Assembly (NCBI GenBank): GCA_020253445.1
Contig: JADCBP010000005.1
Location: forward strand, 558,001 to 622,000
Length of the DNA stretch: 64,000 bases
Source of the DNA: Methylobacterium sp.
Lineage (GTDB): Bacteria; Pseudomonadota; Alphaproteobacteria; Rhizobiales; Beijerinckiaceae
Direction of reading: 5' to 3'
This document shows, piece by piece, positions 50,720 to 64,000 of the stretch (position 1 is the first letter of the stretch; each line of letters begins with the position of its first letter). A program made the position numbers and the translations under genes. Under the pieces are notes generated by a model that did no database searches, was not told the origin of the DNA, and saw nothing but the letters and a program-made list of their open reading frames with translations.

Positions 50720-51109
50720 CAGTATCACTCCGTCTTGGTTCGCCTTGGCGTTGTTCTGGATATGGTTGCAATGCATCAAACGAGCAAGTGGCCGACGATG
50801 CAAAAATGCCATTCTTGCGCCTGAGGCCTGGAATTCGACACAAATTTTTCGATTTCATCACGTGATTCCTATAAATTTCTCAAGATGAACACCTGTTTTA
50901 GTTGCGTGACAGCATTTTCTCACGTATCTGCTGATTTCCATGGGTATGCGATTCACGATGCGTGTTCGATTTTCGTGATATCCCTCCCCAATTGCTTGAT
51001 GTGGCGCCTTGTTTTTCTGCGGCAATGCAAGGAGAACACCCCGAAGGCTGTCGCATAATGCGCTGGCGGAAAGAGCCGCCAGACAAAAACCGAGGAAGGA
51101 AAGAGAGTG
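50720..51109. promoter_or_regulatory. AT-rich divergent regulatory region between msrB and mucR
   Basis: 390 nt without a credible gene. The middle is AT-rich with repeated TCACG words (CATCACGTG, CTCACGTA, TTCACGAT, TTCGTGAT), including an inverted TCACGA (50953-50958) / TCGTGA (50973-50978) pair. Close to mucR is a perfect hairpin in the leader, CTGGCGG AAAGAG CCGCCAG (51063-51082), 28 nt before the start. MucR regulators commonly repress their own genes at AT-rich sites, so autoregulation is plausible. Confidence 0.45.
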
Positions 51110-51517
51110 ATGTTGGACAACAACGAATTGATCGAGCTGGCGGCCGAAATAGTCTCCGCCTATGTCAGCAACAATTCGGTCCCGGCCGCGGATCTGCCCG
51201 CGCTGATCAACGACGTCTACAACGCGCTGACGAAGGTCGGCACTGTTCCGGCAGAAATCGTGGTTGAGCCCGCAAAGCCGGCCGTTTCCCCCAAGAAGTC
51301 CGTATTTCCCGACTACATCATCTGTCTCGAAGACGGCAAGAAGTTCAAGTCACTCAAGCGGCATCTGCGCACGCAGTACAACATGTCTCCCGAACAATAT
51401 CGCGAGAAATGGGGCCTCGCCGCCGAGTATCCGATGGTCGCGCCGAACTATGCCGCGGCCCGTTCGCGCCTAGCAAAGGAAATGGGCCTGGGACAGAAGC
51501 GCAAGCGGGGTCGCTGA
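51110..51517 (+). CDS. mucR: MucR/Ros-family transcriptional regulator
   Basis: A 135-residue regulator with an N-terminal helical oligomerisation part ([18 protein letters not shown]) and a Ros-type finger region, [22 protein letters not shown]. In Ros the finger is CxxC..H..H; here the second Cys is Asp, as in many MucR proteins that do not need zinc, and the second His position is Gln ([10 protein letters not shown]). MucR proteins act globally as H-NS-like binders of AT-rich DNA and control envelope and motility genes. GAGGAAGGAAAGAG precedes the ATG at 51110; the GTG 3 nt earlier is an alternative. A strong terminator follows. Confidence 0.92.
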
Positions 51518-51566: not shown

Positions 51567-51812
51567 TGTGCCCTCACCGCTGCCCGACGCCCATGCGCGC
51601 GGAATCCTGCTCCCGAATGCGTCAAAGGCAGTGCAATAAAGTAAGAATATAATCATATTAAAAGACCAAATTGCGGGGATTTTCGGAATAAATTCTTATA
51701 AAAATGCGATTTTCCAGTTTACCGATCCTTAGCTTCTTCCTAACTTTCGCCATGAGGTGCGGCGGGCCGTTTCAGTCCTGAGCATCTGGGGCCGGGTTCG
51801 GGAGAAGGCGGG
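51567..51812. promoter_or_regulatory. AT-rich island before the DnaA-domain gene with a CtrA-like box
   Basis: About 245 nt, strongly AT-rich between 51636 and 51720 in an otherwise GC-rich region. It contains a perfect TATAAT (51648-51653) without a good -35, and TTAG-CTTCTTC-CTAAC (51729-51744), which matches the CtrA consensus TTAA-N7-TTAA at six of eight bases, 70 nt before the start. I see no gene. Confidence 0.4.
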
Positions 51813-52268
51813 ATGGTTCGGCAGCAGAAGCAGTACTTTCCGGTGACGGAACCGGTCACAATCACCCTTGCTCGGCGTTCGCGCGGCAGACCTCGAAAGG
51901 TGCCGCCCCCGCGCCGCTTTTCCGCGATCGAGTTGCAAGCGCGGCTTGGGCCGCGTCTTGCCGAAGCAGTTGCCGCCAACTGGCAGGGCTGTTCGTTGCG
52001 GGAATTGCGCGCTGGAACCCGTTCTGCGGCTCACGTCGCCGAAGCCCGCCAGGTGGGAATGTATCTTGCCCACACGCTGTTTCATCTGTCGATGACCCGG
52101 ACCGGCGCTGTGTTCGGGCGGGATCGCACCACGGTGCGGCATGCCTGCCAACTGATCGAGGATCAGCGCGATCGCCCCTTGCTCGATGAGCCTCTTCTGA
52201 TGCTTGAGGCCGCGCTCGCCCGCTGGGCCGCGGATTTTGCCCGCGTGCTGACGGAGGACGAACCATGA
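51813..52268 (+). CDS. Stand-alone DnaA domain IV-like DNA-binding protein
   Basis: A 151-residue protein. The first 45 residues are basic with GRPRK, an AT-hook-like element (RRSRGRPRKVPPPRR). Residues about 70-125 match DnaA domain IV: HVAEARQVGMYLAHTLFHLSM then GAVFGRDRTTVRHACQLIEDQ. The DnaA signature DHTTV is DRTTV here, so the His that contacts the DnaA box is Arg. There is no AAA+ domain, so it cannot itself initiate replication, but it might bind DnaA-box-like DNA. The next gene overlaps by ATGA. Confidence 0.82.
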   Translation: MVRQQKQYFPVTEPVTITLARRSRGRPRKVPPPRRFSAIELQARLGPRLAEAVAANWQGCSLRELRAGTRSAAHVAEARQVGMYLAHTLFHLSMTRTGAVFGRDRTTVRHACQLIEDQRDRPLLDEPLLMLEAALARWAADFARVLTEDEP

Positions 52269-53098
52269 GGCCCGCCTCGGAAGCCAAGGCTGGCGCGAAG
52301 GGGCGGGACGAGGATCGCCTGCTGGTCCTGCTCGCGGAGCCGGGTGCCCATGCGCGGCGCGATGAGGGGATCGTGCAGGTGGTCGTGTCGCGGAAGGGTG
52401 TCCCGCTGGTGCGCGGGCGCTTTCCCATGGCAGCGCTCGCGCCGCTGCTCTCGTCCGGCGCCGTGCGCTGCGACCAGGTGGCGGGATTGCCCCGCTATCA
52501 GCTCACGGCCGAAGGGCGCGCCGCCGCCTTTCGCCGCCAATCGGGCGAGGATGCCTTCGGCGACCAGCATCGCCTGCTGGAACAAGGGGCAGGCCCGGAA
52601 GGCGTGCCGGTGAAGCGCAACCTCCGGGAAGACCCCCTGGCTCTCCTCGCCCGGCAGCAGATCGGAAGCTTCGCGGTCGATGAAGCGAGCCACGAGGCCG
52701 GCGAGCGCCTGCGCCGCGACATTGAGATGGCCTGCCTGCCGCCGAAGGTGACGATCAACTGGGATCGCCTCGTGGTCGACGGTGCCGGGCCTGGTGCCGG
52801 CCTCACGATGACGGAGGCTCAGGCGCAGGCCAGGAAGCGCGTGCAGAAGGCCATGCTCGCGGTCGGGCCGGATTTTTCAGGGCCTCTGATGGATCTTTGC
52901 GGCTTCGGGCGCTCGGTCGGCGAGATCGAGCAGGGGCTCGGCCTGCCGGTGCGCTCGGGCAAGGTCGTGCTTTCGCTCGGTCTCCGGTCGCTGGCCCGCC
53001 ACTATGGCCTCTCGAGCATGGCACAGGGCACGGCCTGCCAGCCCATCCGTCATTGGGGAACGGCTGATTCGCGGCCGGCCTTCCCGAAAACGGCGTGA
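52265..53098 (+). CDS. DUF6456 domain protein with possible helix-turn-helix
   Basis: A 277-residue protein that overlaps the DnaA-domain gene by ATGA. The first 90 residues look like a winged helix (LAPLLSSGAVRCDQVAGLPRYQLTAEG), the middle is variable, and the last 130 form a DUF6456 block with RLRRDIEMACLPPKVTINWDRLVVDG and a Gly/Leu-rich end (SLGLRSLARHYGL). The family is restricted to Alphaproteobacteria as far as I recall and has no function assigned. With its partner it looks like a two-protein DNA-binding unit. It abuts sufE tail to tail. Confidence 0.75.
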   Translation: MRPASEAKAGAKGRDEDRLLVLLAEPGAHARRDEGIVQVVVSRKGVPLVRGRFPMAALAPLLSSGAVRCDQVAGLPRYQLTAEGRAAAFRRQSGEDAFGDQHRLLEQGAGPEGVPVKRNLREDPLALLARQQIGSFAVDEASHEAGERLRRDIEMACLPPKVTINWDRLVVDGAGPGAGLTMTEAQAQARKRVQKAMLAVGPDFSGPLMDLCGFGRSVGEIEQGLGLPVRSGKVVLSLGLRSLARHYGLSSMAQGTACQPIRHWGTADSRPAFPKTA

Positions 53099-53527
53099 TC
53101 AGCCTTTGGCGGCTTCCGCCTTGATGCGCGCGACCATCGAGGCGAGCCCGTTCGCACGCTGCGAAGTGAGGTGATCCTTGAGCCCGATGGTGGCGAAGAA
53201 GCCCGCTGCATCGAGCCCTGCGACTTCCGCCAGGGGGCGTCCATCAAACATGGCCAGCACAAGGGCGACGAGGCCCTTCACGATCAGAGCGTCGCTGTCG
53301 CCCTTGATCGAGAGAGAGCCATCGGCGTTCCGGCTCATGAGCAGCCAGACCTGGCTCGCGCAGCCGGGAACGCGATTGGCATCGGAATAGGCCTCGTTCG
53401 GAAGGGGGGCGAGCCGGCGGCCGAGATCGATCAGGTAGCGATAGCGTTCGTCCCAATCATCGAGGAAATCGAGATCGGTCACGATGCTCCGGAGGCGCGC
53501 ATTGCCGGGGGGAAGGGTGAAGGTCAT
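53099..53527 (-). CDS. sufE: SufE-like cysteine desulfuration protein
   Basis: A 142-residue SufE that takes persulfide sulfur from the SufS desulfurase for iron-sulfur cluster assembly. The acceptor cysteine is in NRVPGCASQVWLLMSRN. The ATG at 53527 (MTFTLPPGNARL) is preferred to the track's 53554. No other suf genes are nearby, which is usual for stand-alone sufE in this order. A DUF5330-like gene lies upstream on the same strand, a neighbour pair seen in other Hyphomicrobiales. Confidence 0.9.
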   Translation of the reverse strand: MTFTLPPGNARLRSIVTDLDFLDDWDERYRYLIDLGRRLAPLPNEAYSDANRVPGCASQVWLLMSRNADGSLSIKGDSDALIVKGLVALVLAMFDGRPLAEVAGLDAAGFFATIGLKDHLTSQRANGLASMVARIKAEAAKG

Positions 53528-53594
53528 GGCTGTGGCGCTTCGCTCCGGGCCCATTGGTTCCAGCCCCGCAGATGGGGCGAGCGGATGCGTCGGG

Positions 53595-61793: not shown

Positions 61794-62306
61794 ATGAGCG
61801 ATCCGCCAAGGCCCTTCTGGCAAACCAAATCCCTCGCCGAGATGAGCGAGGCGGAATGGGAAAGCCTGTGCGATGGCTGCGGGCGCTGCTGCCTTGTCAA
61901 GCTCGAGGACGAGGATACGGGGCGCATCCATTTCACGGATGTCGGCTGCCGGTTGCTCGATGGCGAAAGCTGCCGGTGCCGCGATTATCCCAACCGTTCA
62001 TCCGTGGTGCCGGATTGCGTGACATTGCGGCCGGAGAGCATCGCCGATCTTCACTGGATGCCTCCAACCTGCGCCTATCGTCTGCTCGCGGATGGGCAGG
62101 ATCTGCCGGCGTGGCACCCGCTGGTTTCGGGCCGCCCGGAAAGCGTGGTCGAGGCCGGCATCAGCGTGAAGGGCCGTCTCTCGGGCCAAGAGGAGGACTT
62201 TTCCGTCCCCGAACTGGTCGAACGCATCCGCGCCTGGCCCGGGCGCTGGCCCAAGGGCGCGCGGCCGGCCCGGAAGGCGAAGGCAGACAGCAATCCCCGC
62301 AGTTAA
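61794..62306 (+). CDS. YcgN-family cysteine cluster protein (UPF0260)
   Basis: A 170-residue protein of the UPF0260/YcgN family. It opens [22 protein letters not shown] and has a cysteine set [36 protein letters not shown], and PPTCAYR that could hold an iron-sulfur cluster or zinc. Family function is unknown. GGAGGGT precedes the ATG at 61794; the track start 61758 is rejected. Divergent from the PBP gene over 104 nt. Confidence 0.87.
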
Positions 62307-62313
62307 GGTTAAT

Positions 62314-62330
62314 ATTCCTAGCATAGGAAT
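62314..62330. promoter_or_regulatory. Palindrome and GTTAA repeats upstream of the terminase genes
   Basis: ATTCCTA, GCA, TAGGAAT forms a perfect palindrome in an AT-rich patch, preceded by GTTAAGGTTAA (62302-62312), two direct copies resembling CtrA half-sites. It lies about 245 nt before the small-terminase-like gene, within a 268-nt spacer where the rest holds no gene I accept. It could serve as an operator for the downstream cluster, or a weak 3' stem of the YcgN-like gene. Confidence 0.35.
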
Positions 62331-62574
62331 TTAGTCATTGACACCGTCACGCTGATCGGGCATCCTCTCTTCACGCTCCCGAATTGTGACCAGGACGCCC
62401 GAGGCGTTTCAGCAGCGGGGGCTTCTCAGAGACCTTTTCATGATTGTCCTCCGGCCCGTTGCCGCGACGGGGCGGCATTTCGCGTTCTGCACGGAAATCA
62501 TCCGGGCGGATGGTGCGCCGTGCTTCGCCCCTGATGCCGAACAGGACGGCGCTGTTCCTTGTGGGGGAAACCGA

Positions 62575-62949
62575 ATGAACTCCAATGGATCCCATGCACC
62601 ATCCACCGCATCGCGCGGCAAGCGGCCGGGCCATGCCCGGCGACGGCGCATCGTCTCCCGCCTCTGGCAGACGGCGGAGAAGCAGGTGGATGAGGTGGAA
62701 AATCGCCTCGCCGCCCTGCGCGACGATCCGCAGGCCATGGAGCGCGAAGCCAAGACGCTCGCGATCATCGCACGCACGGTGCGCGATCTCGTGGCCATCG
62801 ACGACGAGGCCGGGGTTTCCCGCCTGGCGGAGAATCGGAATGAAAGCGACAACGCCGCGCCGGCCCGCGCCCTTGCCGAGTTCCGTCGCGAACTTGCGGA
62901 GCGCCTTGAGCAGCTGCGTCACGAGCGGGCAGGGCCCGGCGCTCCTTGA
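62575..62949 (+). CDS. Small-terminase-like protein of a gene-transfer-agent-type cluster
   Basis: A 124-residue protein from the ATG at 62575, after GTGGGGGAAAC; the track's 62386 is too early. A basic N-terminus (KRPGHARRRR) leads into helices with IVSRLWQTAEKQVDEVENRLAAL and REAKTLAIIARTVRDLVAIDD, a coiled-coil-like pattern. In alphaproteobacterial gene transfer agents the gene before the large terminase is g1, a small terminase; position and size fit. Its end overlaps the large terminase by about 44 nt in another frame. Confidence 0.62.
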   Translation: MNSNGSHAPSTASRGKRPGHARRRRIVSRLWQTAEKQVDEVENRLAALRDDPQAMEREAKTLAIIARTVRDLVAIDDEAGVSRLAENRNESDNAAPARALAEFRRELAERLEQLRHERAGPGAP

Positions 62950-64000
62950 GGGCCTTTCGCCGGCCGCCCTGCGCGCCTTCGCGACCGACTGGACGCTCTT
63001 CGCCCGCGAGGACCAGTTGCCCCCGGCGCGAGCACGGGATGGCGGAGCCTGGACGACCTGGCTGATCCTGGGTGGGCGAGGCGCGGGCAAGACCCGGACA
63101 GGTGCGGAATGGGTGAGGGGCCTCGCCCTGGGGTTGCCGCCCTTCAGCGCGAAGCCCGTGGGGCGGATCGCCATCGTGGCCGAGACGCAGAATGACCTGC
63201 GCGAGGTGATGGTCGAGGGTGTTTCCGGCCTGCGCGCGGTGCATCCGCCGGATGAACGCCCCGTCTGGAACACCAGCCGGAGGCGGCTTGAATGGCCGAA
63301 CGGGGCTGTTGCCCAAGGTTTTTCGGCGGAAGATCCCGAATCCCTGCGCGGGCCTCAGTTCGAGGCCGCGTGGTGCGATGAACTGGCGAAATGGCGCTAT
63401 GCCGAAGCGGCCTTCGACATGCTGCAATTCGGCTTGCGCCTCGGGGATCAGCCGCGGCAGATCGTCACGACAACGCCACGGCCGACACCCCTGCTGAAGC
63501 GGCTCGCCAATGACCCGCATGCGGCGGTGACGCGCGCTTCCACCCGGGCCAACGCGGCCAATCTCGCGCCGGCCTTCCTGGCGCAGGTGGTCGATCGTTA
63601 TGCCGGCACGGCTCTGGGCCGGCAGGAACTCGAGGGCCTCTTCGTCGAGGAGAACCCCGATGCGCTGTTCCGGCGCGAAACGATTGAACGCGGCCGGGTG
63701 GCCGAAGCGCCCGATCTCGAGCGGATCGTGGTGGCGGTTGACCCTCCTGCCGGCGGAAAGCGCGGCGGACGCAGCGGCATCGTGGTGGCGGGGCGGGCCG
63801 CTGATGGCGCGATCTATGTGCTGGAAGATGCTTCGCTGGAGGCAGCCAAGCCCGAGGCGTGGGCGGCGCGGGCCATCGCGGCCTTCCGCACGCATGAAGC
63901 GGACCAGCTTCTGGCCGAGATCAACCAGGGCGGCGACATGGTGGCCAGCGTGATTGCGGCCCTCGACGATGGCGTGCCGGTGACGACGGTGCGCGCGACA
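62906..64000 (+). CDS. Large terminase subunit, GTA/HK97-like (partial, runs off the window)
   Basis: An open frame runs unbroken to the right edge (365 codons visible); it is not in the ORF track because it lacks a stop here. The ATPase half has WLILGGRGAGKTRTGAEW (Walker A), AIVAETQNDLREVMVEG, and EAAWCDELAKW (Walker B), and then the linker and the start of the nuclease domain with IVVAVDPPAGG. It packages DNA into a phage or gene-transfer-agent head. The sequence style matches GTA gp2 of Alphaproteobacteria. The TTG at 62906 has GGAG 4 nt upstream; TTG 62894 is an alternative. Confidence 0.85.
   Translation, partial: MSSCVTSGQGPALLEGLSPAALRAFATDWTLFAREDQLPPARARDGGAWTTWLILGGRGAGKTRTGAEWVRGLALGLPPFSAKPVGRIAIVAETQNDLREVMVEGVSGLRAVHPPDERPVWNTSRRRLEWPNGAVAQGFSAEDPESLRGPQFEAAWCDELAKWRYAEAAFDMLQFGLRLGDQPRQIVTTTPRPTPLLKRLANDPHAAVTRASTRANAANLAPAFLAQVVDRYAGTALGRQELEGLFVEENPDALFRRETIERGRVAEAPDLERIVVAVDPPAGGKRGGRSGIVVAGRAADGAIYVLEDASLEAAKPEAWAARAIAAFRTHEADQLLAEINQGGDMVASVIAALDDGVPVTTVRAT

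Follow-up and report, generated by a model that had tools for sequence, protein, structure and literature searches.

In Rhodobacter capsulatus GafA (rcc01865), the activator of the gene transfer agent (GTA, a domesticated phage), is a single 42-kDa polypeptide, made of a DnaA-like N-terminal module and a DUF6456 C-terminal module, with a central region that binds RNA polymerase omega. The GafA homologue of the Hyphomicrobiales is usually of 22–32 kDa, with a small DnaA-like gene before it, sufE downstream and mucR upstream (Sherlock and Fogg, PMC9638019). In Caulobacter the corresponding pair, GafYZ, activates the GTA (PMC9632790, PMC11150451). There, GafY together with IHF and sigma-70 activates the GTA promoters, IHF binds both promoters, and GafZ is an anti-terminator working with NusA, NusG and NusE (PMC11150451). 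Caulobacter GafY was first named HdaB and tied to replication on overexpression, as far as the citation in PMC9632790 tells; the GTA authors argue that these effects are a consequence of GTA induction (PMC9632790). Caulobacter RogA (CCNA_00080), of about 213 aa, has an XRE-type HTH and an S24/LexA-like C-terminus whose catalytic residues are lost. It binds GGAA-N4-TTCC repeats, and RogA ChIP detected gafYZ and CCNA_02002 only, the GTA promoter not being seen.

The gene pair and its neighbours

The window analysed here, a stretch of 64,000 nucleotides from a Methylobacterium sp. genome, carries the following genes around such a pair.

51107..51517, + strand: mucR (ROS/MUCR regulator), kept upstream neighbour (PF05443, 175.7 bits; many related loci; PMC9638019)
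51813..52268, + strand: gafY, stand-alone DnaA domain IV with an N-terminal RGRPRK (AT-hook-like) extension (PF08299, PDB sequence matches, family alignment)
52265..53098, + strand: gafZ, DUF6456 protein, predicted anti-terminator and co-activator (PF20057, 113 bits; alignment of 20 homologues)
53099..53554, − strand: sufE-like gene, kept downstream neighbour and synteny marker (related loci; PMC9638019)

GafY is a protein of 151 aa in which PF08299 (Bac_DnaA_C) is the sole Pfam domain (50.7 bits, E 1.9e-13, residues 59–114). The Pfam search found no AAA+ domain in it, so GafY does not qualify as a DnaA initiator. It matches the DnaA domain IV structures 3PVP and 1J1V in sequence, more strongly with a family profile, and the stand-alone DnaA-box-binding fold proposed in the preliminary description is thus borne out at the level of sequence. 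PF08299 has exactly two matches in the genome, the full-length DnaA (contig C15) and GafY (contig C14, to which the window belongs). The recognition-helix motif reads GRDRTTV in GafY as against GRDHTTV in the DnaA of the same genome, and the His-to-Arg change, already noticed in the DHTTV signature, recurs in all full-length GafY relatives aligned. The alignment covered relatives within the family, which are 32–46% identical to GafY. The AT-hook-like N-terminus is also real, though the extension with its RGRPRK core is confined to the host genus and relatives from other genera are without RGRPRK.

GafZ has 277 aa and PF20057 (DUF6456) as its only Pfam domain; a control search with this model gave a match in Caulobacter vibrioides. 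Comparison of GafZ with solved structures returned no match, and the predicted structures of the pair are of low confidence (pLDDT 50 and 48; AlphaFold, few sequences). The two genes overlap by ATGA, in agreement with the coupling described earlier. AG-rich stretches (GGGAGAAGGCGGG, GGAGGA) at 51797-51812 and 52252-52264 lie before both start codons and fit translation of both genes. The upstream mucR is probably outside the gafYZ operon.

The order mucR, DnaA-like gene, DUF6456 gene, sufE shows no difference from that of the split GafA loci of the Hyphomicrobiales (PMC9638019, Figure S2), and is kept as mucR-gafY-gafZ-sufE in the close named relatives, which are MAGs labelled Methylobacterium sp. 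with a GafZ identity of 93%. As in the Caulobacter crescentus pair (CCNA_01111/01112), a DnaA-domain-IV gene is followed directly by a homologue of the GafA C-terminus, and the genome also has a GTA cluster, a putative RogA-like gene and, in front of gafYZ, predicted inverted repeats of the RogA type. Unlike in C. crescentus, the pair is flanked here by mucR and sufE, the GTA cluster lies ∼10 kb downstream (by locus number the two are far apart there), and a predicted RogA-type site accompanies the consensus −35 of the GTA promoter. The preliminary description had put the pair forward as a good candidate for an undescribed unit; as the gene order is published for the Hyphomicrobiales (PMC9638019) and GafYZ for Caulobacter (PMC9632790, PMC11150451), the pair is, with good support, a further example of an already described regulatory pair. 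From the domain content, the identical published synteny and the function of the homologues, the GTA cluster in the same genome, and the co-occurrence and the promoter and operator sequences given below, we are highly confident that the two genes are GafY and GafZ, a GafA split in two, and form the dedicated activator of the RcGTA-type GTA encoded just downstream.

The GTA cluster and its promoter

The preliminary description made no mention of a GTA, and yet a complete cluster of the RcGTA type begins within the window at ∼62.3 kb, about 9–10 kb past gafZ. The single Phage_portal match of the genome is 413 bases past the window end. The cluster comprises genes for terminase, HK97 portal, protease, capsid, head-tail connector, tape measure, baseplate hub and megatron, and a lysozyme-like gene. 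The GTA megatron model scored 1594 bits (cut-off 800) and the RcGTA tape-measure model 147.7 bits, which is below its threshold (cut-off 220). The frames of terminase, portal, protease, capsid, tape measure and megatron are open, so that the cluster, of ∼14 kb, looks intact. Its beginning has the following features.

62306..62321, + strand: predicted RogA-type operator in the GTA promoter, AGGTTAATATTCCTAG (PWM 19.1)
62323..62338, + strand: predicted RogA-type operator abutting the −35, ATAGGAATTTAGTCAT (PWM 25.3, site within the PWM training set; position kept in 33/33)
62338..62366, + strand: core promoter of the GTA cluster, TTGACA-17-CATCCT (element in 33/33 clusters)
62342..62354, + strand: candidate binding site for GafZ, the near-palindrome CACCGTCACGCTG within the −35/−10 spacer (position as the putative ZBE of Caulobacter; family consensus CAGCGTGACGCTG)
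62372..62388, + strand: conserved initially transcribed sequence CACGCTCCCGAATTGTG (family promoter element)
62575..62949, + strand: GTA small terminase-like gene (g1), 124 aa (position, and weak phmmer similarity to the first ORF of related GTA clusters; no match in PHROG or NCBIfam)
62906..64000 and on past the window to C14:622225, + strand: GTA large terminase, start uncertain (PHROG terminase large subunit)

A ∼65-bp element is present before the first GTA gene in 33 of 33 clusters, with scores of 38–54 out of 61 as against a shuffled maximum of 32; the consensus was drawn from these same 33 sequences, and the score therefore tells how well the element is conserved but does not test it independently. 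Its parts are ATAGGAAWWTNRTCC, the −35 TTGACA (in 31 of the 33 clusters), a CAGCGTGACGCTG-like spacer palindrome, a weak −10 and a conserved start CAYGCTCCAGAATTGYG; the palindrome is clear in many clusters, and in some it is degenerate. Tran and Le placed the putative GafZ element (ZBE) of Caulobacter at the same place in the promoter (PMC11150451), and we regard the spacer palindrome as a candidate GafZ site. Since the −35 found here already has the consensus sequence, whereas that of Caulobacter is degenerate and needs GafY, the exact role of GafY may differ in this organism.

Predicted operators and a putative RogA-like repressor

Upstream of gafY we noted four elements.

51641..51656, + strand: predicted RogA-type operator 1, GTAAGAATATAATCAT (GTA-promoter-only PWM 19.2; shuffle p<0.01)
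51669..51681, + strand: AATTGCGGGGATT, tentative GafY box, a weak lead (one-mismatch inverted copy at 62292-62304)
51682..51697, + strand: predicted RogA-type operator 2, TTCGGAATAAATTCTT, containing GGAA-N4-TTC (PWM 13.3 and 16.0; best match offset by 2 bp, on the − strand)
51718..51746, + strand: possible sigma-70 promoter of gafYZ, TTTACC-17-TAACTT, tentative (sequence reading)

The operator PWM was trained solely on the left part of the GTA promoters and then scanned over the regions upstream of gafY and gafZ. Of 21 extended loci, 20 had a match in the gafY/gafZ promoter, whereas at the same threshold 3 separate sites were found in a 194-kb control consisting of the other sequence of these loci, minus overlapping ORF regions beside the same promoters. 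The element recognized at the gafYZ or gafZ promoters and at the GTA promoters, AGGA-N6-TCCT, forms an imperfect inverted repeat and resembles the site reported for RogA, GGAA-N4-TTCC; we infer from this likeness that the protein binding it would be RogA. One genome had a strong match (25.2) at a place other than the gafZ and terS promoters (locus L041, 16316-16333).

The RogA-like gene of this genome, at C14:422393-423007, encodes 205 aa. It was missed by HTH_3 plus S24 at default thresholds, and was found with relaxed thresholds and with relatives. All its HTH matches are below the cut-offs and S24 is not significant, but the putative RogA-like protein can be aligned along its whole length with S24-matching relatives. 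Its Ser and Lys positions, which other genera keep, are apparently lost.

It could be argued that the AGGA-N6-TCCT element is instead an AT-rich UP element or an IHF site, as it abuts the −35, its middle is AT-rich, and both Caulobacter promoters are bound by IHF (PMC11150451). We consider this rather unlikely, though a serious competitor, because the element is an inverted repeat resembling the RogA site, and because a RogA-like protein nearly always accompanies gafZ (69 of 70 gafZ+ genomes vs 3 of 29 gafZ− genomes in the sample described below). The element was also found at the rogA promoters in all seven genomes tested outside the host genus (p up to 0.03); at the rogA promoters of the host genus it is not clear (p 0.05–0.56). 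If the element is a RogA-type operator, its position against the consensus GTA −35 means that the repressor may have a direct effect on the GTA, and such a site would be a difference from Caulobacter, where ChIP did not find RogA at that promoter.

The sites of GafY are less clear. The AATTGCGGGGATT / AACTGCGGGGATT segment is common to the gafY and GTA promoters of members of the host genus; it was not found in the other gafY+ genera, and the GafY box for this reason stays a lead. A GafY box of the form TTNNCGGGGATT had no occurrence in the window, the spacing of this pattern being wrong. In one other GafY-bearing genus (loci L063, L065 and L068) a conserved ACGTGTGGTATTT, resembling the DnaA box TGTGGATAA, lies upstream of the GTA promoter and could be the GafY site of that genus.

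Distribution in the family and the proposed control of the GTA

We compared 99 genomes of the host's family (GTDB sampling), of which 70 had a strong DUF6456 match and were counted as gafZ+ and 29 as gafZ−. A GTA-type capsid was detected in 62 of the gafZ+ genomes (in three as fragments) and in none of the gafZ− genomes (Fisher p 4e-18, phylogeny ignored). In all four members of the genus and in many other genera, the distance from gafZ to the GTA cluster is about 8–30 kb and the strand is mostly the same. A PF08299 protein lies beside gafZ in only 16 of the 70 genomes. A profile built from GafY found no GafY beside the remaining gafZ loci examined; at L012, for example, ∼120 bp separate mucR from gafZ. 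Gozzi et al. reported GafY adjoining GafZ in 494 of 759 cases, so that the absence of GafY is already known; in the host's family it is the majority state.

These distributions bear on the suggestion, made in the preliminary description, that the pair is a replication or cell-cycle control unit. A HdaB-like GafY might compete with DnaA or modulate RIDA at oriC and so control replication initiation, with the DUF6456 protein as its partner; the DnaA domain IV fold by sequence would fit this, as would the first description of the Caulobacter orthologue as HdaB, whose overexpression affects replication (so far as it is cited in PMC9632790). A core replication role does not, however, agree with the lack of a PF08299 protein beside gafZ in 54 of the 70 gafZ+ genomes, and the gene pair tracks the GTA genes. 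Moreover, all the aligned GafY proteins carry Arg in place of the key recognition-helix His, and the HdaB phenotype was put down to GTA induction by the GTA authors (PMC9632790). We therefore hold replication control to be very improbable; what stands of the suggested function is a transcription factor or other DNA-binding protein coupled to its partner. It is scarcely credible, too, that gafYZ is a degenerate leftover, the regulators being kept without a functional GTA. No GTA capsid was detected in 8 of the 70 gafZ+ genomes, several of which are fragmented assemblies, but the cluster described here looks intact with its main frames open, and the GTA promoter is conserved.

Reading the pair as a GTA activator, and extending the Caulobacter findings to the host organism by homology, we infer the following order of events. 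A RogA-like repressor would silence gafYZ. On relief of the repression, GafY would bind upstream of the GTA promoters, its DnaA domain IV serving for DNA reading only, and help the sigma-70 RNA polymerase to start. GafZ would bind the spacer between −35 and −10 and ride with the polymerase and the Nus factors through the terminators of the ∼14-kb cluster, and the resulting GTA expression would lead to particles and lysis. The repressor may also act on the GTA promoter itself through the operator abutting the −35.

It is possible that the control of the GTA has been rewired in this family. A GTA promoter that combines a consensus −35 with a predicted RogA-type operator of its own suggests that the repressor holds this promoter directly as well as that of gafZ, and the absence of GafY beside gafZ in about three quarters of the gafZ+ genomes suggests that GafY is dispensable, leaving RogA-GafZ-GTA as the core circuit. 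We give this reading an even chance. If true, it would be a new regulatory variant, and the family would offer a natural experiment on how a GTA manages without GafY. A stand-alone DnaA box-binding domain beside a DUF6456 protein marks a GTA control unit and not replication control, which corrects a tempting misreading, and the operator, the GafZ site and the transcribed leader are candidate cis-elements for GTA regulation across one Hyphomicrobiales family.

In three loci from genera with small genomes, an extra ORF of ∼170–200 aa with its own operator-containing promoter is present just upstream of the small terminase (L044 5773-5806, L056 5095-5130, L055 8404-8421), and is possibly an additional GTA gene.
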